The translations under genes and the position numbers were made by a program. The notes under the pieces are model-generated. The model did no database searches. It had not been told where the DNA came from and saw only the letters and a list, made by a program, of their open reading frames with translations. A stretch of 64,000 nt of DNA from Crossiella sp. CA-258035 (lineage in GTDB: Bacteria; Actinomycetota; Actinomycetes; Mycobacteriales; Pseudonocardiaceae). This document shows, in pieces, positions 2,108-62,595 of this stretch. Location: assembly GCF_030064675.1 (NCBI RefSeq), contig NZ_CP116413.1, forward strand, positions 4,744,001 through 4,808,000, read 5' to 3'. Within the stretch, counting starts at the first letter, position 1. Every line of letters begins with the position of its first letter.

Positions 2108-2828
2108 GCCCCGGCCGCAGCACCAGCTCGGTCGCACACGCCTGCCCCGGCATGGCCAGCAGCGCGCGGATGGTCTCGGCCACGGTGACGGGGGAGAGGT
2201 AGCGCTCCGGCTGGTACCGCAGCCCCTCCACCGCGCACACATCCCGCTGCATGTCGGTGGCCACCCGGCCCAGGAACACCGTGGTCACCCGCAACCGCGG
2301 CTCCTCGGCGCGCAACGAGTCGGCGAAGGCCCGCAGCGCGAACTTGCTCGCCGAATAGGCCCCGCGCGCCGGGTTGGCCTGCAACCCCGCGGTGGAGTTG
2401 ACCAGCACCACGTGCCCACCGGCCGCCCGCAGCGCGGGCAGCAGCAACCGGGTCAGCTCGACCACGGCGAAGACGTTGACCTCGAAGGTCCGCCGCCACA
2501 GCCCGCCGTCGCACTCCTCGACCCGCCCGGTGGCCAGCACCCCGGCGTTGTGGATCAGCGCGTCCAGCCGCGTCACCCCCGGCGGGACGTGCAGGGCCGC
2601 CGGATCGGCCAGGTTCACCGGCCACGCCCGCGCATCCGGCAACTCCCGCGCCAGCCGGGTCAGCGCGGGGGAGCCCCGCCCGCCCAGCACCAGCCGGTGA
2701 CTGGTTCCCAGCGCGGCGGCGATCTCCGCGCCGATGCCCCGGGAAGCGCCCGTGACCACCGCCGTCGGCTGGTCCTGGGCGCGGGTCGGCGGCACCGGCG
2801 CCCCTTCTCCCTCGATGAGCACGGGCAA
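2088..2828 (-). CDS. SDR family NAD(P)-dependent oxidoreductase
   Basis: A 246-residue classical short-chain dehydrogenase. The glycine motif TGASRGIG near residue 27 binds the dinucleotide, NAG (in LDALIHNAGVL) is the structural motif, the catalytic Ser is in LVNSTAG, and YSASK carries the catalytic Tyr and Lys. No membrane segment is seen. The substrate is unknown. The start at 2828 gives about 22 residues before the Rossmann strand; a slightly later start cannot be excluded. It is convergent with the phosphatase gene and divergent from the GH92 gene. Confidence 0.87.
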   Translation of the reverse strand: MPVLIEGEGAPVPPTRAQDQPTAVVTGASRGIGAEIAAALGTSHRLVLGGRGSPALTRLARELPDARAWPVNLADPAALHVPPGVTRLDALIHNAGVLATGRVEECDGGLWRRTFEVNVFAVVELTRLLLPALRAAGGHVVLVNSTAGLQANPARGAYSASKFALRAFADSLRAEEPRLRVTTVFLGRVATDMQRDVCAVEGLRYQPERYLSPVTVAETIRALLAMPGQACATELVLRPGLSQGSG

Positions 2829-2944
2829 GTCTGTGATCGCCTCCCGGCCAGGCGGAAGACTCCCGATGGGTGGTGGGCGCTACCACCCGTTCGAAGCTTG
2901 TCCCTCAGGCCCGCCCAGGGCCATCCTCAATCTCGCACCCGATC

Positions 2945-2960
2945 CTGACAACGTTGTCAG
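2945..2960. promoter_or_regulatory. LacI-family type operator, perfect 16-bp palindrome
   Basis: The sequence CTGACAACGTTGTCAG is a perfect inverted repeat with a central CG, the form recognised by LacI-family carbohydrate regulators. It ends 19 nt before the GTG start of the GH92 mannosidase, a position from which a bound repressor would block initiation. No LacI-type gene is in the window, so the regulator would act in trans (inference). Confidence 0.7.
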
Positions 2961-2979
2961 ACATGGTCGAGGAGGACGT

Positions 2980-5274
2980 GTGAGACCACGAACCCGCCGC
3001 GCCGTCATCGGCGCACTCGCCGCGATCACCCTGCTCAGCACCGCCGTCCCCGGCACCGCGGCCGAACCGGACCAGACCCTCGTCGCCGACCCCACCCACT
3101 ACGTCGACCCGATGATCGGCACCGGCAAGGGCGGCCCGGTCGTCGGCGAGATCAACACCTTCCCCGGACCCACCGCCCCCTTCGGCATGATCCAGTGGAG
3201 CCCGGACAACGGCAACTACGCCGGCTACAACTACCACCTGGGCCCCATCCGCGGCTTCAGCCTCACCCACGCCTCCGTCGGCTGCCACGCCTTCGGCGAC
3301 ATCCCCATCCTGCCCGTGGCCGGCGCGCTCGGCGCCACCCCGTGGAACCGCACCGAGAAGTTCTCCCACCGCACCGAGAACGCCGAGGTCGCCCACTACG
3401 GCGTCACCCTGGAGGACTCCGGCATCCGCGCCGAGCTCACCGCCAGCACCCGCGCCGGACTCGGCACCTTCACCTACCCCGACGGCGCCACCCCCCAGGT
3501 CCTGGTCAAAACCGGCGCCAGCCTGGCCGGCAACAGCGCGGCCACCGTCTCGGTCAACGGCCCCGACGAGGTCACCGGCTCCGCCACCAGCGGCCGCTTC
3601 TGCGGCGAGGGCGGCAACAAGTACACCGTCTACTTCGCCCTGAAGTTCGACCGCCCCTTCACCGCCCACGGCACCTGGGACGGCAGCACCGTCACCCCCG
3701 GCAGCGCCACCGCCAACCACCCCAAGTCCGGCGCCTACCTCACCTTCGACCCCAGCGACCGCCCGCTCCGCGCCAAGGTCGCCCTCTCCTACGTCAGCGC
3801 CGACGGCGCCCGCGCCAACCTCAGCGAGATCCCCGGCTGGGACCCCGAACCCGTCCGCGCCGCCACCCGCGCCCAGTGGCGCGAACACCTCAGCCGCATC
3901 CGCATCGGCGGCGGCACCCCGGCCCACCGCACCACCTTCTACACCGCCCTCTACCACTCCCTGATCCACCCCAACACCTTCAACGACGTCGACGGCCGCT
4001 ACATCGGCTTCGACAGCAAGATCCACCAAGTCGAGAAGGGCCGCACCCACTACGCCAACTTCTCCGACTGGGACACCTACCGCAGCCTGGCCCCACTGCA
4101 CGGCTGGCTCTACCCCGACCGCGCCTCCGACATGGCCCAGAGCCTCGTGCTGGCCGCCGTCCAAGGCGGCTGGCTGCCCCGCTGGCCCATGGCCAACGGC
4201 TACACCAGCGTGATGAACGGCGACAACAGCGTCCCGCTCATGGTCAACCTGCACGCCTACGGCGCCAAGGACTTCGACACCCGCACCGCCCTGCAGTACA
4301 TGATCAAGGGCGCCACCAGGGCCGAACCCGTCCAGTGGGGCTACATCGAACGCCAGGGCATCGAGGACTACCAGAAGCTCGGCTACGTCCCCAACGACCG
4401 CGCCCTGGTCGGCCACGTCCGCAAGGGCGCCTCCCAGACCCTCGAGTACGCCGTGGACGACTTCACCATCTCCCGCTTCGCCCGCACCCTCGGCGAGCAC
4501 GCCACCGCGGCCACCTTCGCCAAACGTGGCGAGTACTGGCGCAACCTGTTCGACCCGAACACCGGCTACCTGCGCCCCAAGGACAGCAAAGGCCAGTTCC
4601 CGCCCGGACCCGGCTTCGTGCCACCCCCACCCGGCCAGTTCGGCCAGGACGGCTTCGAGGAGGGCAACGCCGCCCAGTACCGCTGGTTCGTCCCGCACAA
4701 CATCGCCGGCCTGATCACCGCCCTCGGCGGCAAGACCAAGGCCCAGCCGCTCATGGACGAGTTCTTCACCAAGATCAACGTCGGCCCCAACGAGCCCTAC
4801 CAGTGGTCCGGCAACGAGGTCGACTTCTCCACCCCCTGGCTCTACAACTACGTCGGCCAGCCCTGGAAGAGCCAGGCCGTCATCCGCCGCATCCAGAGCG
4901 AGCTCTTCGCCCCCAACCCCGACGGCCTGCCCGGCAACGACGACCTCGGCGCCCAGTCCTCCTGGTACGTCTGGTCCGCCCTCGGCCTCTACCCGGTCAC
5001 CCCCGGCACCGCCGACCTCTCCGTGCACACCCCGCTGTTCCCCGCCATCACCATCAAGCCCGGCAACGCCGGCGAGCTGCGCATCACCGCACCCGGCGCC
5101 GGCGCCGCCCGCCCCTACATCACCGGACTCCACCTCGACGGCCGCCCCTGGGCCCGCACCTGGCTGCCGCAGAGCATCGTGCGCACCGGCGGCGAACTCC
5201 ACTTCCGGCTGCGCGCCACACCCGACCACAACTGGGCGACCACACCAGCGGCCGCCCCACCCTCATATCAGTGA
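2980..5274 (+). CDS. Secreted GH92 family glycosyl hydrolase (alpha-mannosidase)
   Basis: A 764-residue exo-acting, Ca2+-dependent alpha-mannosidase family enzyme. It begins with a Sec signal peptide (basic RPRTRRA, hydrophobic core, cleavage near GTAAEP). The mature chain starts with the GH92 motif YVDPMIGTGKGG and NTFPGPTAPFGMIQWSPD. The C-terminal (alpha/alpha)6 domain carries GGWLPRWPMANGYTSVMNGD, EEGNAAQYRWFVPHN and GNDDLGAQSSWYVWSALG, the conserved substrate and metal-binding segments. GTG 2980 is chosen because GAGGAGG precedes it and the signal peptide follows. It probably trims mannosides outside the cell for uptake. A LacI-type operator lies just upstream. No carbohydrate-binding module is attached, unlike many longer actinobacterial members. 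Confidence 0.93.
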   Translation: MRPRTRRAVIGALAAITLLSTAVPGTAAEPDQTLVADPTHYVDPMIGTGKGGPVVGEINTFPGPTAPFGMIQWSPDNGNYAGYNYHLGPIRGFSLTHASVGCHAFGDIPILPVAGALGATPWNRTEKFSHRTENAEVAHYGVTLEDSGIRAELTASTRAGLGTFTYPDGATPQVLVKTGASLAGNSAATVSVNGPDEVTGSATSGRFCGEGGNKYTVYFALKFDRPFTAHGTWDGSTVTPGSATANHPKSGAYLTFDPSDRPLRAKVALSYVSADGARANLSEIPGWDPEPVRAATRAQWREHLSRIRIGGGTPAHRTTFYTALYHSLIHPNTFNDVDGRYIGFDSKIHQVEKGRTHYANFSDWDTYRSLAPLHGWLYPDRASDMAQSLVLAAVQGGWLPRWPMANGYTSVMNGDNSVPLMVNLHAYGAKDFDTRTALQYMIKGATRAEPVQWGYIERQGIEDYQKLGYVPNDRALVGHVRKGASQTLEYAVDDFTISRFARTLGEHATAATFAKRGEYWRNLFDPNTGYLRPKDSKGQFPPGPGFVPPPPGQFGQDGFEEGNAAQYRWFVPHNIAGLITALGGKTKAQPLMDEFFTKINVGPNEPYQWSGNEVDFSTPWLYNYVGQPWKSQAVIRRIQSELFAPNPDGLPGNDDLGAQSSWYVWSALGLYPVTPGTADLSVHTPLFPAITIKPGNAGELRITAPGAGAARPYITGLHLDGRPWARTWLPQSIVRTGGELHFRLRATPDHNWATTPAAAPPSYQ

Positions 5275-5298
5275 CAACTGTTGCCCCATAACGAAAAA

Positions 5299-5343
5299 CA
5301 GCCGCGGTCGGCCCGGAAAAACTTCCGGCGCCTACCGCGGCTG
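5299..5343. terminator. Two-tier hairpin between convergent genes
   Basis: Outer arms CAGCCGCGGT (5299-5308) and ACCGCGGCTG (5334-5343) are exact complements. Between them CCGGAA and TTCCGG form an inner stem. It lies 24 nt after the GH92 stop and overlaps the last codons of the minus-strand gene ending at 5332, so it could terminate transcription from both sides. There is no U-tract. Confidence 0.55.
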
Positions 5344-5703
5344 CCGCTGTTCCGGCACCGACCGCGAAGCACAACGCGCACACGTCACCGGCTCGTCCAG
5401 CAACCAACCCGACGCGCACAACCACGCCACCACCGGCTCCGGCAAATCCGGCCCTGGCGCACACACCAACGGACCATCGCCACACCCGTGGCATTCCACA
5501 TTCAGCACCCCGCCGCGCGGCGCGCACCCCACACAGAAACGGCGCACCCGCACCACCGAAGCCACATCCACCAGCAGCCACACCACGGTCAGGTCAGCCC
5601 GGAGCTGTTCCGTTTCCATCCGATGCGAAACAGACCGGCCACATTCCGGACACGACACCACCGACGTCGTACCCTGCGTCAAGCCGTGCCCTGGGCTGGT
5701 CAC
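5332..5703 (-). CDS. Small zinc-ribbon-like hypothetical protein
   Basis: A 123-residue protein with three pairs of cysteines: SCPECGRSVSHR near the N-terminus, FCVGC then ECHGCGDG in the middle, and VTCARCASR near the C-terminus. This suggests one or two zinc ribbons. It has no signal or membrane helix. GTG 5703 is chosen because GGAGG lies 7 nt upstream; the frame stays open to 5829 but without a comparable ribosome site. I do not recognise a named family. Its position before the recombinase gene on the same strand may reflect co-expression, but nothing else supports a link. Confidence 0.6.
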   Translation of the reverse strand: MTSPGHGLTQGTTSVVSCPECGRSVSHRMETEQLRADLTVVWLLVDVASVVRVRRFCVGCAPRGGVLNVECHGCGDGPLVCAPGPDLPEPVVAWLCASGWLLDEPVTCARCASRSVPEQRQPR

Positions 5704-5852
5704 GGCGCCACCTCCAGGTGAACGGGGGAGCGTCACAACTGTGGTTACACGTTCACGATAAGTGACGAACCCGCCATTCCCAAGCATCTTTTCCGGAACC
5801 CGGTGAACAACACCCGTAATCGGCCCCAATTCCGGATGAAACCCGCCCAGGA

Positions 5853-6902
5853 TCAGCCCTCCACAACCCCCGCCGACCCCGGATCCGCCACCTTCGCCAA
5901 CGCCCGGTAAGTACGGTTGCCCACCGCCGCCGCCCGCTGTTCCCGGCCCGTCGCCTCGATGTAGTTCTGACTCGTATTCAGGTTCGCATGCCCCAGCAAC
6001 GCCATGATCTCCGCCGCATTCGCCCCATCCTCAGCCAGCCTGGTGGCAAAGGTGTGCCGCAACGCGTGCAGGTTCGCCCCCGTCGGCACCCGGTCATGAA
6101 TTCCGGCCGCCCGATAACAACAACTCACCAGGTACTGCAACGCACCCCGCCCGATCGGCTCACCCCGCAGATCCAGCACCAGCGCCGACTCCCGCCCCAG
6201 CCGCAACCCGGGGAACCGCGCCCGGCACGAAGCCAGATACCGCCCGATCACCGCCTCCATCGGCGCACTGATCGGAATCGACCGCTCCCGGCTGCCCTTG
6301 CCCCGCACGTGCAACCGCTGCTCACCAGGCCGCCCCACCACACTGCTGACCAGCAACGCCCGCATCTCCGCCGACCGCAACCCGGTCACCAGCCCCAGCC
6401 CCACCACCAGCAGGTCCCGCTCCGGCCACGGATCCCGCGACTTCCGCTCACCCGAAGCCACCGCCGACAACAACTGCTCCGGCGTGTCCTCACCCCGCAA
6501 CGGCTTCGGCATCGACGGCGCAGGCCGCGGCCGCGCCACCGCCCCCATCGGATTCCCCGCCACCAACCCATCGGCCACGCAGAAGTTCATGAACTGGTTC
6601 CAGGTCGACCAGGCCCGCGACACCGAGGTCTTGGCATGGGTCTCCGCGAACTCCCCGAACGCCGCCCGCAACGCACCCGCCCCCAGCTGAGCCAACTCCA
6701 GCTCCGCGGGCGCACACCCGGCCGCATCGGCCAGCAACACCACGATCCCCGCCAGATCACGCCGATACGCCGCGGTCGTGTGCGGCGAGTCCTTCCGCGA
6801 CCGACGCGCGAGGAAGAACGACTCCTGGGCCTCTGACAACAACACACCCAGAGGAATACCGCACACCACCGACAAAGATCGACACGGCCGGTGACCAGCC
6901 AC
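5853..6902 (-). CDS. Tyrosine recombinase / site-specific integrase (orphan)
   Basis: A 349-residue XerC/D-like recombinase. An N-terminal SAM-like core-binding domain (about 24-125) is followed by a catalytic domain with the full set of residues: Arg176 (TGLRSAEMR), Lys202 (RGKGSRER), His279-x-x-Arg282 (HALRHTFATRL), His305 (LLGHANLNTSQNY) and nucleophile Tyr314. It breaks and rejoins DNA through a 3'-phosphotyrosine. GTG 6902 lies 7 nt after the DinB stop codon, suggesting translational coupling. No excisionase, tRNA gene or attachment-site repeat was seen nearby, so this is not obviously a prophage integrase. It lies 4.7 kb from the dif-like site, but a role there is speculation. Confidence 0.85.
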   Translation of the reverse strand: MAGHRPCRSLSVVCGIPLGVLLSEAQESFFLARRSRKDSPHTTAAYRRDLAGIVVLLADAAGCAPAELELAQLGAGALRAAFGEFAETHAKTSVSRAWSTWNQFMNFCVADGLVAGNPMGAVARPRPAPSMPKPLRGEDTPEQLLSAVASGERKSRDPWPERDLLVVGLGLVTGLRSAEMRALLVSSVVGRPGEQRLHVRGKGSRERSIPISAPMEAVIGRYLASCRARFPGLRLGRESALVLDLRGEPIGRGALQYLVSCCYRAAGIHDRVPTGANLHALRHTFATRLAEDGANAAEIMALLGHANLNTSQNYIEATGREQRAAAVGNRTYRALAKVADPGSAGVVEG

Positions 6903-6909
6903 TCACCAC

Positions 6910-7479
6910 CTACTGACCCAACCGCCCGTCGATCAACTCCCGCAGCAGGTCAGCATGCCCCATGTGCCGCGCGTACTCCTCGATCACATGGATCACCACC
7001 TCCCGCACCGAGGTCGACTCCCCATCAGCGTCCACCAGCTCCGCACCCAGGTCCCCACACCCGGCCAGGAACCCCTCCGCGTACTCGACCTCAGCCCGCC
7101 AGTCCGCCCAGGCCCGCGCCACCACCGCCGGATCCGCCACCGCCTCCTCGAAGTCCGCATCCCGGCACTCCGCCCGCCGGTACAACCACGGCACCTCCTC
7201 ACCAGCCAGCACCCGCCGGAACCAGAACCGCTCCATGTCCGCCAGATGCCGCACCAACCCCAGCAGCGACAACCCCGACGGCGGCACCGCCCGCCGCGCC
7301 AGCTGCTCAGCGTCCAACCCAGAGCACTTCAGCTCCAGCGTCAACCGCTGATCCCGCAGATACCCCGCCAGCACCACCCGCTCATCAGGGCTGTACCCGT
7401 CAAAGGTCCGCGGATCCTCCTCCGGCCGCACGAACATGTTCGACCACGCGAACCCCGCGACCTGCTCACCCTGCGTCAT
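6910..7479 (-). CDS. DinB/DUF664 family protein
   Basis: A 189-residue four-helix-bundle protein of the DinB-like superfamily. The expected metal-ligand histidines are present: HLADMERFWFRR in the second helix and HVIEEYARHMGHADLLRE in the last. This family includes mycothiol- and bacillithiol-dependent enzymes, and actinobacterial members often act in thiol-dependent detoxification; the substrate is unknown here. ATG 7479 is chosen because the following residues (MTQGEQVAGFAWSN) look like the usual beginning. It is followed after 7 nt by the recombinase gene. Confidence 0.8.
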   Translation of the reverse strand: MTQGEQVAGFAWSNMFVRPEEDPRTFDGYSPDERVVLAGYLRDQRLTLELKCSGLDAEQLARRAVPPSGLSLLGLVRHLADMERFWFRRVLAGEEVPWLYRRAECRDADFEEAVADPAVVARAWADWRAEVEYAEGFLAGCGDLGAELVDADGESTSVREVVIHVIEEYARHMGHADLLRELIDGRLGQ

Positions 7480-7572
7480 GCGCGCGACCCTGACGCGCCG
7501 CGCCCCGATGCGCAACGCAATAACCCCGCATCGGTTACGTTGACCGCGCAACCGTCACGAACGCACGGCGGG

Positions 7573-8574
7573 ATGGGTGAGATGCAGAGCATCGCGGACT
7601 TCTGGCACTGGTGGCAGCAGGACGGCGCCACCCAACTCGCCAACGCCATCCACACCGGCGACTTCAGCGACCTGCCCGAACAGATGGCCCACCTGGTCAA
7701 CGCCATCGACAAAGACCTCCAGTGGGAGCTCGGCCCCGGCACCCAGGCCCAGCACTCACTCTGCGTCACCGCCAACGGCGACCCCGCCCTGCGCCCCCTC
7801 ACCGAACGCTGGCTCCGCGCCGCCCCACCACCCGACACCACCTGGGAATACCGCGCCGCCCGCCAAGCAGACCCCGACGTGCTCAACCAGCAGCTCACCT
7901 TCGGCGACTGGGAAGTCGAGCTCGACCAGACCCGGCTCTCCCTCACCGTCGACGAACAGTCCCTGCTCGTCGACGTCACCGTGCACCACCCCACCTTCGC
8001 CACCATGCCCGAGAGCGCCGCCCTCCAAGTCGCCTTCCTCGCCCTGACCTGGCTACTCGGCGAAGACGACCTGGAACGCTGGATCGGCGAGGTCAACACC
8101 GCCACCGCCGAACCAGCCGACGCCCTACCAGCCGACGCGCTCCCGGAAACCGTGCACGCCATGGCCGCCCGCCACCCCGAACCCACCTGGGTGGTCATGG
8201 AAGGGGAGGGACAGGACGGCGCCCAGCTCACCGCGGTCGCCATGCGCCCCCTGCGCTGGATCGACCACCCACTGCTGGACCTGCACGCCGGCATCACCCT
8301 CACCTACCCGGCCCTGGACCCCCGCGACCTGCCCACCGGGGAAGACCTCGCCGAGCTCCAGCAGCAGGAAGACGACCTGCTCCGGCTGCTCGACAACGCC
8401 GTCCTGCTCGTCGCCCACGAAACCGGCCGCGGCGCCCGCACCCTGCACCTCTACTGCGACTCCACCGACGCCGCCACCCAGGCCACCCTCACCACCTGGA
8501 CCCAGCGCCAGCCCAACGCCAGCCTGGACACCCAGCCCGACCCCGCCTGGGACCAGGTCAGCCACCTCCGCTGA
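7573..8574 (+). CDS. DUF695 domain-containing protein
   Basis: A 333-residue acidic cytosolic protein. The first half (FWHWWQQDGATQLA, then DLQWELGPGTQAQHSLCVTA and GDPALRPLTERWLRAAPP) matches the layout of DUF695 proteins, which begin with an aromatic FW-x-WW segment and an ELGPG motif. The second half repeats an alpha/beta pattern. Two in-frame ATG codons (7573 and 7582) could start it; the first is used here. No catalytic residues are known for the family. It is convergent with the MOSC gene, with only 9 nt between the stops. Confidence 0.75.
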   Translation: MGEMQSIADFWHWWQQDGATQLANAIHTGDFSDLPEQMAHLVNAIDKDLQWELGPGTQAQHSLCVTANGDPALRPLTERWLRAAPPPDTTWEYRAARQADPDVLNQQLTFGDWEVELDQTRLSLTVDEQSLLVDVTVHHPTFATMPESAALQVAFLALTWLLGEDDLERWIGEVNTATAEPADALPADALPETVHAMAARHPEPTWVVMEGEGQDGAQLTAVAMRPLRWIDHPLLDLHAGITLTYPALDPRDLPTGEDLAELQQQEDDLLRLLDNAVLLVAHETGRGARTLHLYCDSTDAATQATLTTWTQRQPNASLDTQPDPAWDQVSHLR

Positions 8575-8583
8575 GGACACGGC

Positions 8584-9411: not shown

Positions 9412-9477
9412 AGCCCGAAACTACCGCCCAGCCCCACCACCAGGACTCGAATATCGCCACCTTCACCACCGGCAGAG

Positions 9478-10434: not shown

Positions 10435-10571
10435 CTGACCGAGTATCGGCCCGACCTTGCCCAACGTCCACGCCAGCTGGACGCACGAGCACAAAATTCC
10501 GCGCCACGAGCATGGATCATCCGCCCAACGGCATCCAGACTGGACGCACTGCACAACACTGGGAGGACACC

Positions 10572-14305: not shown

Positions 14306-14307
14306 CG

Positions 14308-54373: not shown

Positions 54374-54413
54374 AAGAATTGGCCGGTGACGCGGCCGGGG
54401 CGATGCTGCACCC

Positions 54414-55256: not shown

Positions 55257-55394
55257 GCCATCCGGCCGCATGATTTCGCGGTGACCTGCGGATATCGAAA
55301 ATCCAACTAATTTCGTTGGCGGGATTCCGGCGACTTGGGCATTATTGGTCTTGCACCACATTGTTTGGTGACAACTGAACTGGGGAGCATTTCC

Positions 55395-55511
55395 ATGGGG
55401 GAAAGATGGGGATCGCTCGGCATTGCCAGGGGTAGGCAACGCCGGGCCGGCAGCATCAAGCGGGGCTGGGACCAGTCAGCCCGGGTCAGCACGCAGAGGG
55501 GTGGAAGGTGA
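55395..55511 (+). CDS. Possible 38-residue basic peptide
   Basis: ATG 55395 opens a 38-codon frame ending at TGA 55509-55511, with GGGGAG about 8 nt upstream and AT-rich, promoter-like DNA before it. The peptide is rich in Arg and Gly (MGERWGSLGIARGRQRRAGS at its start). No family is recognised. It could be spurious. Confidence 0.25.
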   Translation: MGERWGSLGIARGRQRRAGSIKRGWDQSARVSTQRGGR

Positions 55512-55532
55512 TCACCACCTGATCGATTCGGT

Positions 55533-55567
55533 GGCCGGAACAAACGCATCCCGCATTTGTTCCGGCC
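55533..55567. terminator. 12-bp perfect hairpin upstream of the HAD gene stop
   Basis: GGCCGGAACAAA (55533-55544) and TTTGTTCCGGCC (55556-55567) pair across an 11-nt loop. It lies 46 nt beyond the stop of the minus-strand HAD gene and may end that transcript. Confidence 0.55.
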
Positions 55568-55613
55568 GCCGGAAACGGTGATCTGTTCGTTACTGAAGTT
55601 TGGCAACCTTTTA

Positions 55614-56300
55614 TCAGTGCGCGGTGTCCGCAATCAGTTCTCCGCGCAATCCGGCCAGGGTGGCCAGGTCGAGACCGACCAGGGTGTCGCGGAAGACGCG
55701 CCGGGGGCCCGGCTCGACCGGCACCTCGCAGGGCACCACCAGCACCGTGCACCCGGCCGCGGCCGCCGCCGCCACACCGGTGGGCGAGTCCTCCACGACC
55801 ACGCAGTCCGCGGGCTCGACCCCGAGGCGCGCGGCCGCGGTCAGGTACGGCTCCGGGTGCGGCTTGGTCCGGCCGACCTCGTCCCCGCAGAGGGTGAGGT
55901 CGAAGAACTCACGGCCGATGCTGTCCAGGGCCAGCTCGGTCAGGTCCCGCTGGGTGGAGGTGACCAGCGCGGTCGGCAGCCCGCTGGCGCGCACCAGGCG
56001 CAACGCCGCCAGCGCGCCCGGCCGCCACGGCAGGCCGGCGGAGAACAGCTCGCCGGTGCGCTTGGTCAGCCAGGCCGAGGCCGCGGCCATGTCCGCCGGG
56101 TCGTGCGGGCGGCCCAGCTCGGTGAACAGCATCGTGATCGTGCGGTCCTGGCTGGAGCCGGTCATCGCCTTGCGGGTGGCCAGCGACAGCGTGCCGCCCA
56201 GCTCGGCGGCCAGGTCGTCCAGGGAGATGTCCCAGACCTTCTCCGAGTCGACCAGGGTGCCGTCCATGTCCCACAGCACCGCGGCGGGCAACCCGGTCAC
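55614..56300 (-). CDS. HAD family hydrolase (beta-phosphoglucomutase/phosphatase-like)
   Basis: A 228-residue HAD enzyme. VLWDMDGTLVDSE has the nucleophile Asp and acid/base Asp, LVTSTQRDL the Ser/Thr of motif II, the Lys of motif III is in VGRTKPHPEPYL, and VVVEDSPTGVAAAAAAG has the motif IV acids. A helical C1-type cap lies at about 18-85. Substrates of such enzymes are small phosphoesters. It is divergent from the PAC2 gene. Confidence 0.92.
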   Translation of the reverse strand: MTGLPAAVLWDMDGTLVDSEKVWDISLDDLAAELGGTLSLATRKAMTGSSQDRTITMLFTELGRPHDPADMAAASAWLTKRTGELFSAGLPWRPGALAALRLVRASGLPTALVTSTQRDLTELALDSIGREFFDLTLCGDEVGRTKPHPEPYLTAAARLGVEPADCVVVEDSPTGVAAAAAAGCTVLVVPCEVPVEPGPRRVFRDTLVGLDLATLAGLRGELIADTAH

Positions 56301-56389
56301 CGCGCCTCCACCAGCGTGAACACGTCATGATCAGACATGCCGACAGCCTACGGGCACCGGCTGGGGGTGCTGGGCCTTAGTCTTGCCCG

Positions 56390-57328
56390 GTGACAGAACC
56401 CGAAGAGCGCCCCGCTGCATCCGAGGACACCCGGGCTGACCCGCCGACCCTCGTCAACCCGGTGCTCATCGCGGCTTTCGAAGGATGGAACGACGCAGGT
56501 GACGCGGCCAGCACCGCGATAGAGCACCTCCAGCTCACCTGGGACGCCACCCCGCTGGCGGAGATCGACCCCGACGACTACTACGACTTCCAGGTGACCA
56601 GGCCCACCGTGCACATGGTGGACGGGGTGACCCGCCGGGTGGAGTGGCCGACGACCAGGCTGTCGGTCTGCCGTCCACCTGGCGCGGACTTCGACGTGGT
56701 GCTCATGCACGGCATCGAGCCCAACATGCGCTGGCGGGCCTTCTGCGCCGAGCTGCTGCACCACGTGGAGAGCCTCGGTGTGACCACCGTGGTGACCCTG
56801 GGCGCGCTGCTGATGGACATCGCGCACACCCGCCCGGTGCAGGTCACCGGCACCGCCTACGACGCGGAGTCGGCGGCCACCTTCGGGCTGGAACGCTCCC
56901 GCTACGAGGGGGCCACCGGCATCGTCGGGGTCTTCCAGGACGCGTGCGTGCAGATGGGCGTGCCGGCCATCTCCTTCTGGGCCGCGGTGCCGCACTACGT
57001 CTCCCAGCCGCCCTCCCCCAAGGCCACCCTGGCCCTGCTGCACCGGGTGGAGGAGGTCCTCGACCTGGAGGTGCCCCTTGGCGCGCTGCCGGAGCAGGCC
57101 GAGGAGTGGGAGCGCACGGTCACCGAGATGGCCGAGGAGGACGAGGACGTGGCCAGCTACGTCCGCTCCCTGGAAGAGCGCGGCGACCCCGACGGCGACA
57201 TCAACGACCGGCTCACCGAGCTGAGCGGGGACGCCATCGCCGCGGACTTCGAGCGCTACCTGCGCCGCCGCGGCGGCCGGGGCAAACCGGGCGGCGACCA
57301 GGGTCCGCACGGGCCGGGCGCGCGCTGA
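56390..57328 (+). CDS. PAC2 family protein
   Basis: A 312-residue protein of the PAC2 (proteasome assembly chaperone-like) family: NPVLIAAFEGWNDAGDAAST, LMHGIEPNMRWRAFCAELL, VVTLGALLMDIAHTRPVQVT and GVPAISFWAAVPHYVSQPPS are the conserved segments. Actinobacteria with a 20S proteasome carry PAC2 proteins, though a chaperone role is not demonstrated for all. The C-terminus is charged and Gly/Arg-rich. GTG 56390. The last codons (CTGA) overlap the start of the MFS gene. Confidence 0.9.
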   Translation: MTEPEERPAASEDTRADPPTLVNPVLIAAFEGWNDAGDAASTAIEHLQLTWDATPLAEIDPDDYYDFQVTRPTVHMVDGVTRRVEWPTTRLSVCRPPGADFDVVLMHGIEPNMRWRAFCAELLHHVESLGVTTVVTLGALLMDIAHTRPVQVTGTAYDAESAATFGLERSRYEGATGIVGVFQDACVQMGVPAISFWAAVPHYVSQPPSPKATLALLHRVEEVLDLEVPLGALPEQAEEWERTVTEMAEEDEDVASYVRSLEERGDPDGDINDRLTELSGDAIAADFERYLRRRGGRGKPGGDQGPHGPGAR

Positions 57329-58461
57329 GCCGCAGCTGCGGGCGACTGGCGGTCGCCGGGCTGTACGCGGGCGGGTTCCTCGGGCCCTTCGGCGGCGGAG
57401 TGGTGGCCTCGATGCTGCCCGAGCTGGGCCAGGCCTTCGGGCTGACCGCGGCCGCCGCCTCGGCCTCGCTCACCGCCTACATGGTCCCTTTTGCCGGGTT
57501 CATGCTGTTCTCCGGCACCTGGGGTCAGCGCTGGGGCGCCCGGCGCACGGTGATCACCGCCTACCTGGTGTACGTGGCCGCCTCGCTGGGCTGCGCGCTG
57601 GCCCAGGACGAGTACCTGTTCCTGGCCGGGCGCGCGGTGCAGGGGGCGGCCAACGCCTTCGTCACTCCCCTGCTGCTGGGCGCGGTGGCCGCGGTGACCC
57701 CGCCGGGGCGGCTCGGGCGCGCGCTGGGCTGGTTCGCCTCCATGCAGGCCGCGGGGCAGACCTCCGCGCCGCTGCTGGGCGGGCTGGCGGCCGAGGTGAG
57801 CTGGCGCTACGCCTTCGCCGGGGTCGCCGTGGTGGCCGCCGGGCTGGCCGTGCTGGGCCTGCCGGGGGCCGAGGCCGGGCCGCGGCGGACGGCCAGCCTG
57901 CGCACGGCCTGGCGACCGGCGGTGCTGCGCGCCGGGCTGGTCGCCGGGATCGGCTGGGGCTGCCTGGGCGGGCTGTCCTACCTGGTGGCGCTGCGCCTGG
58001 ACGAGGACTTCCACCTCTCCGCCGCGGCCCGCGGGCTGGTGCTGACCGGGTTCGGGCTGACCGGGATCCTCACCGCGCGGGCGGTCGGCCGGGCGATCGA
58101 CCGCTTCGGCGCGCGGCGCTGCGTGCTGACCGGGACCGTGGCGGGCGGGGTGCTGCTGGCCGGGGTGGGCCTGGCGCCCTCGCTGGTGGCGGTGGGGCTG
58201 CTGTGGGCGGCCGCGGGCCCGGCCATGCAGCTGATCATGGTCGGGTTGAACGCGCTGGTGCTGGCCGGGAACGGGGACAACCGGGGTGGCGCGGTCTCGG
58301 TGGTGCAGTCGCTGCGCTTCGGCGGCGGCGCGCTGTCCCCGGTGGCCTTCGTGCCGGTCTACCACCTGGATCCGCTGGCCGCGTTCCTGCTACCTGCGGC
58401 TTTACTGCTGACTACCGCACCTGTGGTGCTTCCGCGGATGCCGCCCGCTCCGCCGCGATGA
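57325..58461 (+). CDS. MFS transporter with an apparent CTG start
   Basis: A 378-residue, 12-TM facilitator. TM1 is LAVAGLYAGGFLGPFGGGVV, and the loop 2-3 motif is GTWGQRWGARRTVI. The frame has no ATG, GTG or TTG close before TM1. The only sensible start is CTG 57325 (LSRSCGRL), which overlaps the PAC2 stop as CTGA and implies translational coupling. The nearest GTG would fall inside TM1 and destroy it; the next upstream would overlap PAC2 by more than 200 nt. Drug:H+ antiporter-like, cargo unknown. Confidence 0.8.
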   Translation: MSRSCGRLAVAGLYAGGFLGPFGGGVVASMLPELGQAFGLTAAAASASLTAYMVPFAGFMLFSGTWGQRWGARRTVITAYLVYVAASLGCALAQDEYLFLAGRAVQGAANAFVTPLLLGAVAAVTPPGRLGRALGWFASMQAAGQTSAPLLGGLAAEVSWRYAFAGVAVVAAGLAVLGLPGAEAGPRRTASLRTAWRPAVLRAGLVAGIGWGCLGGLSYLVALRLDEDFHLSAAARGLVLTGFGLTGILTARAVGRAIDRFGARRCVLTGTVAGGVLLAGVGLAPSLVAVGLLWAAAGPAMQLIMVGLNALVLAGNGDNRGGAVSVVQSLRFGGGALSPVAFVPVYHLDPLAAFLLPAALLLTTAPVVLPRMPPAPPR

Positions 58462-58521
58462 CTTTTGGCGGGCCGGTGAGTCTGTACTGGTGACCTGTCG
58501 CCTGAGATCACGGAGGACACC

Positions 58522-59280
58522 ATGACGAGCACGCCCGCCCACCCGCCGGTGGTCGACCAGGCCACCTGGCAGGCCGCCAGGGACGAGCTGCTGGTCCGGG
58601 AGAAGGCGCACACCCGGGCCGGTGACGCGCTGGCCGCGGCCCGCCGCAGGCTGCCGATGGTCGAGCTCGACGGCACGGTCGAGGTCATCGGAGCCGACGG
58701 CCCGGTGCCGTTCCTGGCGCTGTTCCAGGGCCGCGAGGAGCTCGTGGTCTACCAGCACATGTGGTTCGACGGCGCGCCGCACCAGGGGCAGTGCGAGGGC
58801 TGCACCACCACTGCCTGGCACCTCGACGACTCGGCCTACCTCAACGCCCGCGGTGTCTCCTTCGCCGTGCTGACCACCGGCCGCTGGGCGGAGGTGGCCG
58901 CCTACGTGGAGTTCATGGGCTACCGCCAGCCCTGGTACTCGGTGCGCGACGCGCCCGCCCCGATCGGCGGCGAGATGGGCTACCTGGCCTGCTTCCTGCG
59001 CCGGGGCGAGCGCGTGTTCCTCACCTACTCCACCACCAGCCGGGGCAACGAGGTGGTCAACTCCGCCCTCGCGCTGCTCGACCTGACCCCCTACGGCCGC
59101 GGCGAGGCCTGGGAGGACAAGCCCGAGGGCTGGCCGGAGGGGCGCGAGTCGTGCTGGTCCTGGCGCTGCGACGCCGAGGGCAACCCCACCTGGGGCCCGA
59201 CCAGTCGCCCCGTGCCGCAGTGGACCCGCCCCGGCGCGACCCCGGTGGACACCCTCGGCAGGCAGGGCGACTGCCACTGA
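58522..59280 (+). CDS. DUF899 family thioredoxin-like protein
   Basis: A 252-residue protein. ARDELLVREKAHTRAGDALA and ARRRLPMVELDGTVEVIGAD start the family domain, and CEGCTTTAWHLDDSAYLNAR carries the CxxC-type pair. VLTTGRWAEVAAYVEFMGY and VFLTYSTTSRGNEVVNSAL follow. DUF899 proteins are thioredoxin-fold proteins of unknown reaction; the CxxC suggests redox activity. ATG 58522 has GGAGG upstream. Confidence 0.88.
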   Translation: MTSTPAHPPVVDQATWQAARDELLVREKAHTRAGDALAAARRRLPMVELDGTVEVIGADGPVPFLALFQGREELVVYQHMWFDGAPHQGQCEGCTTTAWHLDDSAYLNARGVSFAVLTTGRWAEVAAYVEFMGYRQPWYSVRDAPAPIGGEMGYLACFLRRGERVFLTYSTTSRGNEVVNSALALLDLTPYGRGEAWEDKPEGWPEGRESCWSWRCDAEGNPTWGPTSRPVPQWTRPGATPVDTLGRQGDCH

Positions 59281-59337
59281 CCACACCCGCCGGAAACCCG
59301 GTCGCCACCCCCGTGGCGGCCCGCTACGGTGGCCCGC

Positions 59338-60132
59338 GTGGCTGATCTTGGACGTGATCCGTTCCCGCTGCGTGGCCGTGTCGCGCTGGTGACCGGGGCC
59401 AGCCGGGTCGCCGGCATCGGCTACGCCACCGCCCGCCGCCTGCACGCCTACGGCGCGGACCTGCTGCTGCACCACCACAGCCCGCACGACGCGGACCAGC
59501 CCTGGGGCGCGCAGCCGCTGGCGGAGGTGCTGGCCGGGGTCCGCGAGGCCGGGTCGGGTCGGGTCGAGGAGATCGGCGGCGACCTGACCGCCCCGGATGC
59601 GCCGGCGGCGGTCGTGGACGCGGCCATCGAGCGGTTCGGGCGGCTGGACGTCCTGGTGTGCAACCACGCGCGCAGCGGCGGCGACGGCACGCTGGCCGAG
59701 ATGACCGCGGCCAAACTGGACGGGCACTACGCGGTGAACACCCGTTCGGCGCTGCTGCTCGCCCAGCGCTTCGCCCACCACTTCCGGGCCGGTCGCGGCG
59801 GGCGGATCGTGTTTATGACCTCGGGCCAGCAGCTCGGGCCGATGCCCGGCGAGGTCGCCTACGCCGCGTCCAAGGGCGCGCTGGCCGCGATCACCCAGAC
59901 CCTCTCGCACGAGCTGGCCGGGGCCGGGATCACGGTGAACGCGGTCAACCCCGGCCCGGTGGACACCGGCTGGGCCGGTCCTGAGCTCGACGAGTTGGTC
60001 CGCACGAGCATGCCCGCGGGCCGCTGGGGCCAGCCGGACGACCCGGCCCGGCTGATCTCCTGGCTGGCCACCGACGAGGCGGAGTGGATCACCGGCCAGG
60101 TGCTCAACTCCGAGGGCGGGTTCCGCCGCTAG
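59338..60132 (+). CDS. SDR family oxidoreductase
   Basis: A 264-residue short-chain dehydrogenase. VALVTGASRVAGIGYATARR binds the cofactor, with an unusual VA insertion in the Gly motif. DVLVCNHARSGGDG takes the place of NNAG, FMTSGQ has the catalytic Ser, and YAASKGALAAI the catalytic Tyr and Lys. The pattern occurs in fabG/sugar-dehydrogenase-like actinobacterial proteins. GTG 59338 follows a -10 box TACGGT by 7 nt (leaderless); GTG 59329 is an alternative. It is convergent with the methyltransferase gene, overlapping by 4 nt. Confidence 0.88.
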   Translation: MADLGRDPFPLRGRVALVTGASRVAGIGYATARRLHAYGADLLLHHHSPHDADQPWGAQPLAEVLAGVREAGSGRVEEIGGDLTAPDAPAAVVDAAIERFGRLDVLVCNHARSGGDGTLAEMTAAKLDGHYAVNTRSALLLAQRFAHHFRAGRGGRIVFMTSGQQLGPMPGEVAYAASKGALAAITQTLSHELAGAGITVNAVNPGPVDTGWAGPELDELVRTSMPAGRWGQPDDPARLISWLATDEAEWITGQVLNSEGGFRR

Positions 60133-60983
60133 AACCGGTAGCGCAGCAGCCGGTACAGGCGGCGCAGCGGCCCGACCCGGTCCGCGGCGTGCGCGGCCAC
60201 CCGGTAGAGCCGGGGCAGCCGGTGCAGGCCGGGCAGCTGGATCGGCGAGCGTTCCTCTGCCAGGCGCGCGCCGGGCACCTGGCGTTCGAGGTCCCTGGCC
60301 TGGTCGAGGCCCCACTGGAAGCGGGCCCCGGTCTTGCGCAGCAGCGGGGTGTGGTTGCCCGCGCGGGCGCCGAGCCGGTTGAACGCGTCGAACTGCAGCT
60401 CTCCCGCCGGGAAGTGGCCGGTGACCCGGCGCAGCAGTGGTAGCACCTCGGCCTCGGTGAGGTACATGGTCAGGCCCTCGGTGATCATCAGCCCCGGGCG
60501 GTCAGCCGGGATCTGCTCCAGCCAGTCCGGGTCGGTGACCGAGGCCCCGAGCAGGTGGTAGCCGGACGGTTCCGGCGGGAACAGGCGGCGGCGCAGCGCC
60601 ACCACGTCCGGGAAGTCCACGTCGAACCAGTCCACCGTGGCGGGCGGCCGCAGCCGCAGGTAGCGGCTGTCCAGGCCGCAGGCCAGGTGCAGCACCATCG
60701 CGTCGGGGTGGCGGCGCAGGAAGGTCGCCGCCCACTCGTCGAACTGGCGGGCCCGCAGTGCCACCGCCGCGGCCGAGGCCCGGTCGATGCGCATCCGCCG
60801 GAAGTCGTAGTCGATCCGGGCCACCAGCTCTTCGGCGACCTCGTCCCGCAGGATCGGCTCGGGTTCCGCGCTGTGCACCGCCCGCCCGTACAGCGTGGCC
60901 AGGTTGGTCTCCCGCACCTCGCGATAATCGATCTTCTCCCTGCTCACCCCGCCGATGATCGCCCTGTCCCCCGCGCCGCGCAT
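60129..60983 (-). CDS. LCMT/PPM-type SAM-dependent methyltransferase
   Basis: A 284-residue protein of the leucine carboxyl methyltransferase-like (PPM) family. MVLHLACGLDSRYLRLRPPA is motif I, WFDVDFPDVVALRRRLF binds SAM and LMITEGLTMYLTEAEVLPLL is the family signature. Mycobacterial relatives modify small metabolites. The start is uncertain: ATG 60983 is used; GTG 60947 is closer to the conserved part (SREKIDYREV). It is divergent from the sigma factor gene at 61037. Confidence 0.85.
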   Translation of the reverse strand: MRGAGDRAIIGGVSREKIDYREVRETNLATLYGRAVHSAEPEPILRDEVAEELVARIDYDFRRMRIDRASAAAVALRARQFDEWAATFLRRHPDAMVLHLACGLDSRYLRLRPPATVDWFDVDFPDVVALRRRLFPPEPSGYHLLGASVTDPDWLEQIPADRPGLMITEGLTMYLTEAEVLPLLRRVTGHFPAGELQFDAFNRLGARAGNHTPLLRKTGARFQWGLDQARDLERQVPGARLAEERSPIQLPGLHRLPRLYRVAAHAADRVGPLRRLYRLLRYRF

Positions 60984-61036
60984 CCGGCAATAGGCTCGAA
61001 ACGGGAACTCGGGCTGGGCTGTGGACAGGCAGAGGT

Positions 61037-61636
61037 GTGGGGACATCCATTCGCGCCAGGTTGCGCGCGGGCGATCCGGTCGCCTTCGGAGAGTTGTTCG
61101 ACGAGCACGCCGCGGCGGTGCACCGGCATGCCGCCCGGGTCACCGGTAACCCGTCGACGGCCGAGGACGTGGTCTCGCTGACCTTCCTGGAGGCCTGGCG
61201 GGTCCGGGAACGGCTGGACCCGGAAGGGGACTCGGTACGGCCCTGGCTGTTCGGCATCGCGGTCAACGTGCTGCGCAACACCGCCAGGGCCGCCCGGCGG
61301 CACCAGCTCGCGCTGACCAAGCTGCCGCCGCCGGAGTCGGTGCCGGACTTCACCGACGAGCTGGTCGGCCGGTGGCACGACGGGGAGCTGGTGGACCGGG
61401 CCAAGGCCGCGCTGGCCAAGCTGCGGCGGGCCGAGCGGGAGGTGGTGACGCTGTGCGTGTGGGCCGGGCTGGACTACGCCGAGACCGCGCAGGCGCTGGG
61501 CATCCCGGTCGGCACGGTCCGCTCCCGGCTGTCCAGGGCCAGGGCCAGGTTGCGGTCGCTGGCCGCGGAACCACCGCCGCGAGCCGGACAGGTAGCAGGT
61601 GACCAGGCACTGCCGACCCAGGAGAGCTTCCGATGA
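61037..61636 (+). CDS. ECF RNA polymerase sigma factor
   Basis: A 199-residue SigE-type sigma factor. Region 2: AFGELFDEHAAAVHRHAARV and AEDVVSLTFLEAW; region 4: LRRAEREVVTLCVWAGLDYA and GIPVGTVRSRLSRARARL. No anti-sigma with a zinc-binding (HxxxCxxC) motif is nearby; instead the next gene is a CU044_5270-family membrane protein, a frequent neighbour of such sigma factors, possibly their regulator. The stop overlaps the next ATG (ATGA). GTG 61037. Confidence 0.9.
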   Translation: MGTSIRARLRAGDPVAFGELFDEHAAAVHRHAARVTGNPSTAEDVVSLTFLEAWRVRERLDPEGDSVRPWLFGIAVNVLRNTARAARRHQLALTKLPPPESVPDFTDELVGRWHDGELVDRAKAALAKLRRAEREVVTLCVWAGLDYAETAQALGIPVGTVRSRLSRARARLRSLAAEPPPRAGQVAGDQALPTQESFR

Positions 61637-62595
61637 ACGACCATGATGACCGGGCCGAGCTGGCCCGCCTGCTGCCGCCACCGCAAGCCCCGACGCTCCT
61701 GGAGCAGCGGCAGGCCGAGCTGCGGACCGACCTGCTCCAGCGGATCGACGCGGCCGCGCCCCGAGCCGGGCGGGCGCGGGTGCGGGTGCGGTGGCCGATG
61801 GTCGCGGTGCCGCTCGCGCTGGCGGCCGCGGTGACCGCGGTGCTGGTGGTGGTGCCCGCGCTGGTGCGGCCCGAAGCGGGGCCCTCCGCCGAGGACCGGA
61901 CGGTCGCCTCGGTGCTGGCCAGGGCGGCCCAGTCCGCCATCGCGCTGCCGGTCGGCATCCGGCCGGACCAGTTCGTCTACGTCAAGAGCCGCAACCAGTG
62001 GCGGAGCCGCTCGATCAACCCCGACGGCTCGTTCATCGAGCTGACCGGCCCGGAGCACAACATCGTGGAGTCCTGGCTGGCCATGGACCCGGCCAAGCAG
62101 AGCTTCAGCCGGATGAACGGCGGGCCGCTGCGCACGACCTCGAGCTACGACGAGGGCCTTGACCCGACCCACCACTTCGCGCAGACCAAGCTGCCCACCG
62201 ATCCGGACCAGCTGCTCGCCTGGCTGTACCGGGACATCCCGCCGGACAAGCCACGGCACCTGATCGCGTTCCGTCAGCTCAGCGACCTGCTCAAGTTCCC
62301 GGTGGCCTCCCCCGCGGTGATCTCCGCGATCCACCAGGCCGCGGCCAAGATCCCGGGGGTGCGGCTGGCCGGCGAGGTCGTCGACGGGCTCGGCAGGCCG
62401 GCGCTGGCGGTCGGCTTCGTCGGCGACAACGGCGCCGAGCGGTTCGACCTGCTCTTCCACCGCGACAGCTCCGACTACCTCGGCTCGCGCCTGGTGACCC
62501 TGCGGGACAGCGGCTACGGCAAGGCCGGGCAGGTCCGCGCCCCGGACGAGATCATCCGGCGGGCCGTGGTGGACCAGCCCGGTCAGCTGCCGTGA
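61633..62595 (+). CDS. CU044_5270 family membrane protein (putative sigma partner)
   Basis: A 320-residue protein. A cytosolic N-terminus of 50 residues (LARLLPPPQAPTLLEQRQAE) leads to one TM helix (MVAVPLALAAAVTAVLVVVP) and an extracytoplasmic domain. PVGIRPDQFVYVKSRNQWRS and QTKLPTDPDQLLAWLYRDIP fit the CU044_5270 family. The gene overlaps the sigma factor gene by 4 nt, so the two are co-expressed. An anti-sigma role is likely from the arrangement but unproven. Confidence 0.85.
   Translation: MNDHDDRAELARLLPPPQAPTLLEQRQAELRTDLLQRIDAAAPRAGRARVRVRWPMVAVPLALAAAVTAVLVVVPALVRPEAGPSAEDRTVASVLARAAQSAIALPVGIRPDQFVYVKSRNQWRSRSINPDGSFIELTGPEHNIVESWLAMDPAKQSFSRMNGGPLRTTSSYDEGLDPTHHFAQTKLPTDPDQLLAWLYRDIPPDKPRHLIAFRQLSDLLKFPVASPAVISAIHQAAAKIPGVRLAGEVVDGLGRPALAVGFVGDNGAERFDLLFHRDSSDYLGSRLVTLRDSGYGKAGQVRAPDEIIRRAVVDQPGQLP

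Follow-up and report, generated by a model that had tools for sequence, protein, structure and literature searches.

Among actinobacteria, the architecture imparting sequences (AIMS) G(A/T/C)GGGGGA and (T/C)GGGGGAG are presented in passages of Corynebacterium genome papers as octamers with a leading-strand bias that is stronger near the terminus and as a means of locating dif (PMC2830990, PMC3164646, PMC3219685). The word studied here, GGGGGAG, shares with the AIMS of those passages both its letters and its strand bias, and fits the form (T/C)GGGGGAG; the differences lie in the host lineage and in the tests of skew and gene strand added here. The preliminary description of this locus knew of no such motif for the lineage, a claim that fails for the phylum, where (T/C)GGGGGAG had already been published. 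The motif is already known, and the novelty lies in a recombinase module beside dif.

The KOPS of E. coli and its relatives (GGGNAGGG) are likewise G-rich and converge on dif, and GGGGAG fits GGGNAG. However, GGGNAGGG was without polarity in this genome (44 v 51 copies within 200 kb), and the helix of the FtsK gamma domain departs here at several positions. Across 93 named loci of dif that were taken as actinobacterial, GGGNAGGG stood at 105 v 62, a bias that stems from GGGGAGGG (59 v 6). GGGGGAG is KOPS-like in behaviour but differs from the word used by E. coli. The SRS of Bacillus, GAGAAGGG, is also short, G-rich and strand-polar; its counts were 7 v 4 in this genome and 24 v 5 in the 93 loci.

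As far as the recombinases are concerned, the single-recombinase Xer systems (XerS/difSL, XerH and XerA), as treated in parts of two articles (PMC5357621, PMC3025954), likewise pair one Xer-like recombinase with a dif-like terminus site of its own. There XerCD is replaced, whereas the unit described below is additional to XerC, XerD and dif, and its site differs in being nearly symmetric. The XerS gene adjoins its site, an arrangement also seen in the dif-side unit.

We analysed a stretch of 64 kb, hereafter the window, whose features are collected in Table 1. Allowing up to 1 mismatch, the dif core GATAATCTACATTATG matched nowhere else in the genome, and 116 of the 120 genomes of the order had a match to dif with no more than 2 mismatches. 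The skew minimum of the window suggested a replication origin, which we rejected because the dnaA match lies at 1.3 kb of the genome and dif lies inside the window. An Rfam scan of the window gave no match.

Table 1. Coordinates of features in the window
Feature	Position	Strand	Remark
Inverted strand skew zone: left side rich in C and A, right side in G and T (+ strand)	1..24000		left end may exceed window
Forward GGGGGAG copies, n=7 (2190, 2667, 5724, 9523, 10002, 10148, 10784)	2190..10790	+	all aimed at dif
Xer-like tyrosine recombinase, clade apart from XerC and XerD	5856..6845	-	
Reversed GGGGGAG copies, n=17 (first 11034, last 62307)	11034..62313	-	all except 11034 aimed at dif
Dif-side palindrome TTCGTGCATAA-TGACGG-TTATGCACGAA, 28 bp	11055..11082		11-6-11 layout as dif
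dif, CTGACCGATAA-TCTACA-TTATGTTAAGT	11592..11619	+	
Lone forward GGGGGAG exception right of dif	47994-48000	+	

Palindrome and third Xer-like recombinase beside dif

The palindrome lies 0.5 kb from dif and is a single genome copy at up to 3 mismatches. Its two 11-bp arms and 6-bp centre, with the pattern ATAA-N6-TTAT, are those of an Xer/dif site. We found it 261-1002 bp from dif in 32 of the 120 genomes of the order. Of the 33 genomes of the order that carry the palindrome, 30 have it once and 32 have it within ~1 kb of dif; family f1 always has it on the same side of dif (14/14) and f12 on the opposite side (16/16). One exact form of it was searched against viral contigs and had 0 matches.

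The third recombinase scores far under the Xer equivalog cut-offs, and this genome also has XerD (over the cut-off, genome position 7076032) and an XerC-clade gene (7528347). Residues R157, K183, H260, R263, H286 and Y295 are invariant in 8 of 8 recombinase sequences and are presumed to be catalytic by analogy with the Xer motif R-K-H-R-[H/W]-Y, as given in a passage of an Xer review (PMC5357621). A strong match was found in 30 of the 120 genomes, all of them among the 32 with the palindrome, where each genome counts on its own however closely related it is to others; among the 30 copies, that of G077 has an in-frame stop within the match. Homologues occur on 55 actinobacterial plasmid records, phage records gave no match at 1e-25, and in the tree of all 36 rows the plasmid and dif-side proteins group together with a support of 0.59. 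The AlphaFold model built from 8 sequences had a mean pLDDT of 58.

In 26 of 30 genomes the palindrome lies at, or within ~0.45 kb upstream of, the start of the recombinase gene, and an imperfect palindrome is similarly placed in 4 of 5 plasmid homologues. Both placements favour a palindrome that is a mere operator of the gene and no recombination site, which we nevertheless consider unlikely. The palindrome has the layout of an Xer site and stays by dif in the genomes whose gene has moved off (~4 kb, 143 kb, 1.08 Mb or on another contig: G000, G092, G087, G054); moreover, another order has five genomes with the palindrome by dif, whereas their gene, 2.7-7.6 kb from dif, is without such a palindrome beside it. 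Somewhat less likely still, the recombinase and its palindrome would be a mobile element in decay whose place near dif is accidental: the plasmid homologues speak for such an element, but the single copy close to dif, its fixed side in each family, the six invariant residues and the lack of a phage match at the above threshold all speak against it.

Judging by sequence and co-occurrence, we think it likely that the third Xer-like recombinase recombines the dif-side palindrome. The terminus would then carry, beside dif, a second unit made of a palindromic dif-like site and this recombinase, possibly of plasmid origin. Such a second cut-and-join system beside dif, with what is likely its own recognition sequence, is apparently undescribed: a literature search on actinomycete tyrosine recombinases and their relation to dif gave nothing on a third recombinase at dif, and neither did the literature on skew and dif cited below or passages of the Xer review (PMC5357621).

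Inverted strand skew around dif

With the threshold for inversion set at GC over 0.08 and T-A over 0.06, we found inverted skew near dif in most genomes that have the dif-side module. At four-fold sites 2-6 kb from dif the outward strand has G at 0.68-0.73 and C at 0.20-0.22 in both gene directions, on which ground transcription was rejected as the cause of the skew. By our own reasoning, break resection at dif or ordinary converging forks would expose the other strand, whereas outward forks would fit.

The skew and the module do not always coincide. Profiles of the two genomes taken from f25, a family of another order, put the skew switch at some distance from dif (~4 kb in one, 2-5 kb in the other) and not near the palindrome, while GGGGGAG changes orientation at dif, apart from a single stray copy per genome; of three further f25 loci, G290 and G342 have one wrong-sign arm each and G243 is symmetric. 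Skew without the module was seen at five named loci (two Nocardia, Spirillospora, Nonomuraea and Actinoallomurus) and in G018, and a palindrome near dif without skew by the threshold was seen in L108, L137, L151, L198 and G106. In G111 the skew is limited to one arm, and G053, a genome lacking the module, falls just under the threshold. All these cases count against a tight link between skew and module. The passages on skew and dif found in the literature (including PMC3364876, PMC3469384, PMC11537254, PMC3025954 and PMC3317982) report no inverted skew at dif.

Polarity of GGGGGAG and its candidate role in orienting FtsK

All 25 copies of GGGGGAG that had been claimed for the window were found at the positions and on the strands given. 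Their number is ordinary (25 vs 28.5 expected from dinucleotide shuffles, and reached in 77 of 100 shuffles); what is unusual in the window is their polarity only. The preliminary count of 24 of 25 copies pointing toward the terminus stands if the switch is placed between 10.79 and 11.03 kb, but with respect to dif itself it drops to 23 of 25, the copy at 11034 being on the wrong side, ~0.55 kb left of dif (two-sided binomial, 1.5e-6 for 24/25 and 1.9e-5 for 23/25). In other genomes the copies between palindrome and dif are aimed at dif in 4 of 4 cases (3 loci). A switch away from dif, or no strand bias across the genome, had been named as grounds for abandoning the idea; the orientation switches here within ~0.8 kb of dif, and the bias was found in the parts sampled, namely 400 kb around dif and a far sample of 20 stretches, each 20 kb long. 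By z score GGGGGAG ranks first in strand polarity among 3578 heptamers in the 200 kb on either side of dif, converging on dif with 107 v 9 copies (92%), and it again ranks first among 3674 in the independent far sample (71 v 12). Near oriC, in two stretches 4.2 Mb from dif, polarity is gone (2 v 3).

Other heptamers were compared with it, as had been proposed: by z score the next non-overlapping one near dif is GACATGA, whose polar fraction there is higher (21 v 0) but which is not polar in the far sample (7 v 7) or in 30 relatives (39 v 43). Among the top octamers of this genome are CGGGGGAG (69 v 6) and TGGGGGAG (26 v 0). Some variants that are also polar in the pooled relatives (AGGGGAG 277 v 12, GGGAGAG 225 v 60, GGGGGAC 219 v 48) are far less so here (29 v 11, 52 v 38 and 51 v 25, in the same order), and the true consensus may be looser. 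The genome holds 1556 copies of GGGGGAG in 9.17 Mb, about one per 5.9 kb. The predicted rise toward dif was observed within 10 kb, with 10 permissive copies per 10 kb at 0-5 kb and 7 at 5-10 kb; from 10 kb out to 200 kb it stayed at 1.3 to 2.7 without declining any more. Over 0-20 kb from dif, density goes from 5.2 to 1.5 per 10 kb in ten inverted-skew genomes and from 3.7 to 2.8 in 21 others.

Polarity is kept in related genomes, as the preliminary description had asked to be checked: GGGGGAG stood at 379 v 13 in the 30 relatives (97% within 20 kb of dif) and the reversed word at 84 v 65, and in the 93 loci counted as actinobacterial the two stood at 351 v 5 and 51 v 40. As a control, the E. 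coli-type GGGNAGGG was polar at 13 sphingomonad dif loci (43 v 1), where GGGGGAG (13 v 2) and its reversed control (12 v 2) were both mildly polar. Copies of GGGGGAG are polar in sense (174 v 1) and antisense (149 v 3) orientation to genes, and intergenic copies less so (76 v 10) than those inside genes. The bias does run against local base skew, as had been claimed: in the ten inverted-skew genomes 92 v 2 copies were observed vs 13.7 v 81.8 expected under a Markov-1 model.

The FtsK gamma domain is present, and all 31 of the 31 genomes share one recognition helix, RVGFAKAGRLMD, which differs from the two solved FtsK gamma helices. Taken together, the convergence on dif, the density next to it, the loss of polarity near oriC, the independence of gene direction, the opposition to local skew, the conservation (30 relatives; 93 loci) and the invariant helix support the KOPS-like reading, and we consider it likely from the sequences that GGGGGAG is to actinobacteria what KOPS is to E. 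coli. On both arms the copies, aimed at dif, would load an FtsK hexamer through its gamma domain and set it to translocate toward dif, where, by analogy with E. coli, XerCD would resolve chromosome dimers. Literature in which FtsK binding of GGGGGAG is tested in actinobacteria was not found.

A word that is G-rich, on the leading strand and present about once per 5.9 kb could also act like Chi, oriented by replication and read by a nuclease of recombinational repair (RecBCD or AdnAB) rather than by FtsK, and the density of Chi in E. coli is similar. We hold this to be improbable: the orientation reverses close to dif, and does so at dif even in genomes whose skew centre is offset from it; the word is commoner within 10 kb of dif; and its strong polarity is lost near oriC. 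Words with strand skew are frequent in bacteria, but base skew and gene direction were rejected as causes, and a by-product of either is close to excluded, with the local skew predicting the opposite sign, sense and antisense copies alike in polarity and the backward-read word barely polar.

Taking its parts jointly, we give about an even chance (roughly 0.5) to the following overall reading. In several lineages, which we take from their genera to be filamentous actinomycetes, dif would be accompanied by a second unit for chromosome resolution (the third Xer-like recombinase and its palindromic site, perhaps from plasmids). Most of these genomes would also have had their skew reversed, for up to ~11 kb to either side of dif, by a strand-asymmetric process that works outward from the terminus, such as outward replication or repair tracts, while selection preserved the FtsK signposts despite it. 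For a large group of bacteria GGGGGAG offers a well-defined candidate for the word that orients FtsK, and the invariant gamma helix gives it a partner to be tested against. The inverted-skew genomes offer an unusually clean example of a word retained against composition. The inverted skew makes events at these termini directly testable, and a second recombination unit alongside XerC, XerD and dif, if true, would change the view of chromosome resolution there.

Strand polarity of GGGGGAG around dif

The window holds the terminus, because the only dif core of the genome (a single 9.17 Mb contig) lies at 4,755,598, which is window 11598, and the dnaA match lies at 1.3 kb. Our recount of GGGGGAG in the window recovered 25 copies, each where the preliminary description had placed it; their number is ordinary and only their polarity is unusual. 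It had also been claimed that 24 of the 25 point toward the terminus, and we found that 23 point at dif, since the copy at 11034 is wrongly oriented for its place to the left of dif. Within 200 kb of dif we counted 52 forward and 7 reversed copies on the left side and 2 forward and 55 reversed copies on the right, that is, 107 v 9 (here and below, copies pointing at dif v copies pointing away), which ranked first by z score among 3578 heptamers when only those with at least 20 copies were considered. A far sample of 20 stretches of 20 kb, located 0.3 to 4.2 Mb from dif, gave 71 v 12 and again the first rank by z score (of 3674 heptamers), so the strand bias is present across the parts of the genome sampled, with 2 v 3 in the two stretches nearest oriC. 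Only GACATGA was more polar by fraction near dif (21 v 0), but this bias disappeared both in the far sample (7 v 7) and among relatives (39 v 43). Over the whole genome the two strands carry 824 and 732 copies of GGGGGAG, and 390 and 409 of the word read backward. Density is higher next to dif: permissive copies reach 10 per 10 kb at 0-5 kb and 7 at 5-10 kb from dif, compared with 1.3 to 2.7 between 10 and 200 kb.

Base skew near dif is reversed in 10 of 31 genomes, including the host. In these ten, within 10 kb of dif, we observed 92 v 2 against 13.7 v 81.8 expected under a Markov-1 model, which argues strongly against base composition as the source of the polarity and agrees with the earlier claim that the bias opposes the local skew. 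Gene direction is rejected as well, since the word was equally polar whether the gene lay on its own strand (174 v 1) or on the opposite one (149 v 3), with genes called by a custom codon-model script that used no annotation; between genes it was less polar (76 v 10).

Conservation of the word and its relation to FtsK

A dif match was present in 116 of 120 genomes of the host order, and we examined 20 kb on each side of dif in 30 relatives with such a match, picked by family and contig size. The polarity recurred in them, with 379 v 13 for GGGGGAG and 84 v 65 for the reversed word, and GGGGGAG ranked first among heptamers both in the 8 genomes of the host's family (99 v 4) and in the 22 pooled from other families (280 v 9). 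In the pooled relatives, substitutions at position 2, 3, 5 or 6 abolished all or nearly all polarity, and it persisted when position 1 was A (277 v 12), position 4 was A (225 v 60) or position 7 was C (219 v 48). In a further 20 loci of the order the count was 136 v 3. A dif pattern scan also yielded at least 119 named loci, assigned to groups by title. Among the matches listed, 93 loci counted as actinobacterial showed 351 v 5, debatably including L188 (Bacillus by title, 75% G+C, 8 v 0), and 13 remaining loci showed 7 v 3, where the placement of L105 (Phoenicibacter, 0 v 0), which we take to be an actinobacterium, is likewise debatable. As a positive control of the method, GGGNAGGG gave 43 v 1 in the 13 sphingomonad loci among the matches listed.

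In E. coli FtsK, residues N1296, R1300 and E1303 contact KOPS. The host genome encodes one FtsK gamma domain, and its recognition helix, RVGFAKAGRLMD, was found in the best match of 31 of 31 genomes; the corresponding helix is RIGYNRAARIIE in 2j5p and KIGYNRAARMIE in 2j5o, solved chains that presumably come from E. coli and Pseudomonas. An invariant helix together with an invariant word is the pattern that a binding pair would show, although it is not proof of one. The preliminary observation stands, and the interpretation of GGGGGAG as a KOPS-like, FtsK-orienting word is well supported by the sequence evidence (polarity, density, relatives, skew and helix).

The word had been thought undescribed in this lineage. 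The same word stands in passages of Corynebacterium genome papers (PMC2830990, PMC3164646, PMC3219685): in the first, the leading strands of C. aurimucosum carry 856 copies and the lagging strands 61, the second names these words actinobacterial and the third also uses them. A literature search on the leading-strand word in Actinobacteria likewise brought up Corynebacterium genome papers. The passages available from recent FtsK papers on Corynebacterium and mycobacteria (PMC11898615, PMC13277299) give no such word for actinobacteria, and a search combining GGGGGAG with FtsK found nothing relevant. GGGGGAG is already described, and a test of its link to FtsK was not found in the literature searched. 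The published words reportedly go back to Hendrickson and Lawrence in 2006.

A recombinase and a palindrome beside dif

The unexpected part of the terminus is a second unit adjoining dif.

Features around dif in the window
Feature	Window position	Remarks
dif	11592-11619	core at 11598
Dif-side palindrome	11055-11082	11-6-11 layout, ATAA-N6-TTAT core
Third Xer-like recombinase gene	5856-6845 (-)	
Short inverted repeat CGTCACAGTGACG	11314-11326	between palindrome and dif
Inverted GC and AT skew zone	1-24000	regardless of gene direction

The perfect palindrome TTCGTGCATAA-TGACGG-TTATGCACGAA, located between genes to the left of dif, shares layout and core with dif itself, and we found no second copy in the host genome with up to three mismatches. 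We searched 120 genomes of the order for its core, TGSATAA-N6-TTATSCA, and found it in 33 (single copy in 30 of the 33), with a copy at a distance of 261 to 1002 bp from dif in 32 of them; the reversed core pattern occurs in 0 of 120. The arms covary, TGCATAA with TTATGCA and TGGATAA with TTATCCA, except for one mixed copy in genome G106. In the host's family all 14 genomes concerned have the palindrome on the XerC-arm side of dif (arms named by analogy with E. coli), in family f12 all 16 have it on the opposite side, and those of families f7 and f8 lie one on each side.

A predicted-protein comparison found one protein family near dif in 8 of 10 inverted-skew genomes versus 0 of 21 others. 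This family belongs to the tyrosine recombinases (Pfam PF00589, 8.6e-22), R, K, H, R, H and Y are invariant in 8 of 8, and its nearest NCBIfam models, XerC and XerD, score far below their cut-offs (147 and 121 bits versus 335 and 330). The host also has XerD and XerC. In a tree of 36 proteins, a dif-side clade (support 0.92) and a plasmid clade (1.0) separated from XerC (1.0) and XerD (0.97); the grouping of plasmid with dif-side proteins was weak (0.59). Profile matches at or below 1.5e-129 were found in 30 of 120 genomes, all within the 32 with a palindrome near dif; the other two are G106 and G073, whose palindrome sits on contig number 177 of its assembly. The palindrome is at the gene, or up to ~0.45 kb upstream, in 26 of the 30, and in the host, G092, G087 and G054 the gene is apart from it with the palindrome still near dif. 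Among the named loci listed, 13 of 119 have the gene by dif: Amycolatopsis (3), Micromonospora (3), Kutzneria, Actinokineospora, Plantactinospora, Couchioplanes, Spirilliplanes, Actinoplanes and Nocardiopsis.

Weaker matches (1e-79 to 2.5e-49) occur in genomes G006, G106 and G035. Far from dif, such homologues have a palindrome 60-85 bp away (G006 C1:155 kb, G006 C2:125 kb, G106 C1:27 kb); they sit on the 5.97 Mb contig of G006 and on two smaller contigs (191-199 kb), and these genomes also hold extra palindrome copies without the gene. Another Xer-like recombinase lies 19-31 kb from dif (G041:C1:2123422, G078:C1:3584796, G114:C3:137821, G118:C1:4102877, G040:C1:1681183), also in G114 and G040, which have no dif-side unit; the G041 and G114 proteins form a separate clade with one G066 protein. 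A different perfect 11-6-11 palindrome, ACCRGACAGAA-N6-TTCTGTCYGGT, lies ~0.41 kb from dif in locus L168 (Nonomuraea) and ~0.57 kb in L127 (Actinoallomurus), and a distant recombinase (32-36% identity) lies 5.0 kb from dif in L168 and 2.1 kb in L199 (Spirillospora). This palindrome and recombinase are possibly a parallel unit.

Inverted skew and occurrence of the unit elsewhere

In the ten inverted-skew genomes, G and T are enriched on the strand that leads outward from dif, whichever way the genes run; GC skew on this strand rises from 0.02 over the first kb to 0.25 at 3-5 kb and is back at zero at 11-13 kb. Besides the host, the ten comprise G118, G092, G066, G107, G087, G012, G041, G078 and G055, where the strong GC and AT inversion was seen within 20 kb on each side of dif; the remaining 21 genomes of the first set, all of the order, stayed below our threshold. 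Inverted skew went with the palindrome in 10 of 10 versus 0 of 21 genomes of the first set, in 13 of 14 with it versus 1 of 6 without it in the second, and, with palindrome or recombinase, in 12 of 16 versus 5 of 103 named loci listed (counted by hand; 26 of the 119 not counted as actinobacterial), counts that come from related genomes and hence are not independent. Loci L161 and L191 (both Nocardia by title) and L300 have inverted skew near dif and no palindrome or recombinase match. The sign of the inverted skew would fit replication or repair tracts that run outward from the terminus.

At 1e-60 the profile matched 27 of 295 genomes of the class, 21 of them from f25, a family of another order. 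A dif match (up to 2 mismatches) was found in 16 of the 21, and in 15 of these 16 it shares a contig with the gene, 0.7 to 7.6 kb apart by hand measurement. The f25 palindromes pair 8 to 10 of 11 arm positions; they lie 298 to 953 bp from dif in 5 of 5 loci examined, ~0.4 kb in three short loci, and within 1.5 kb of the gene in 7 of 21 genomes. The inverted zone is off-centre in both f25 genomes profiled. Homologues also occur on 55 plasmid records (38-41% identity among the 20 matches listed), and an imperfect palindrome of the dif-side kind precedes the gene in 4 of 5 plasmids inspected. The dif-side unit may have originated as a resolution unit of a plasmid and later passed to the chromosome.
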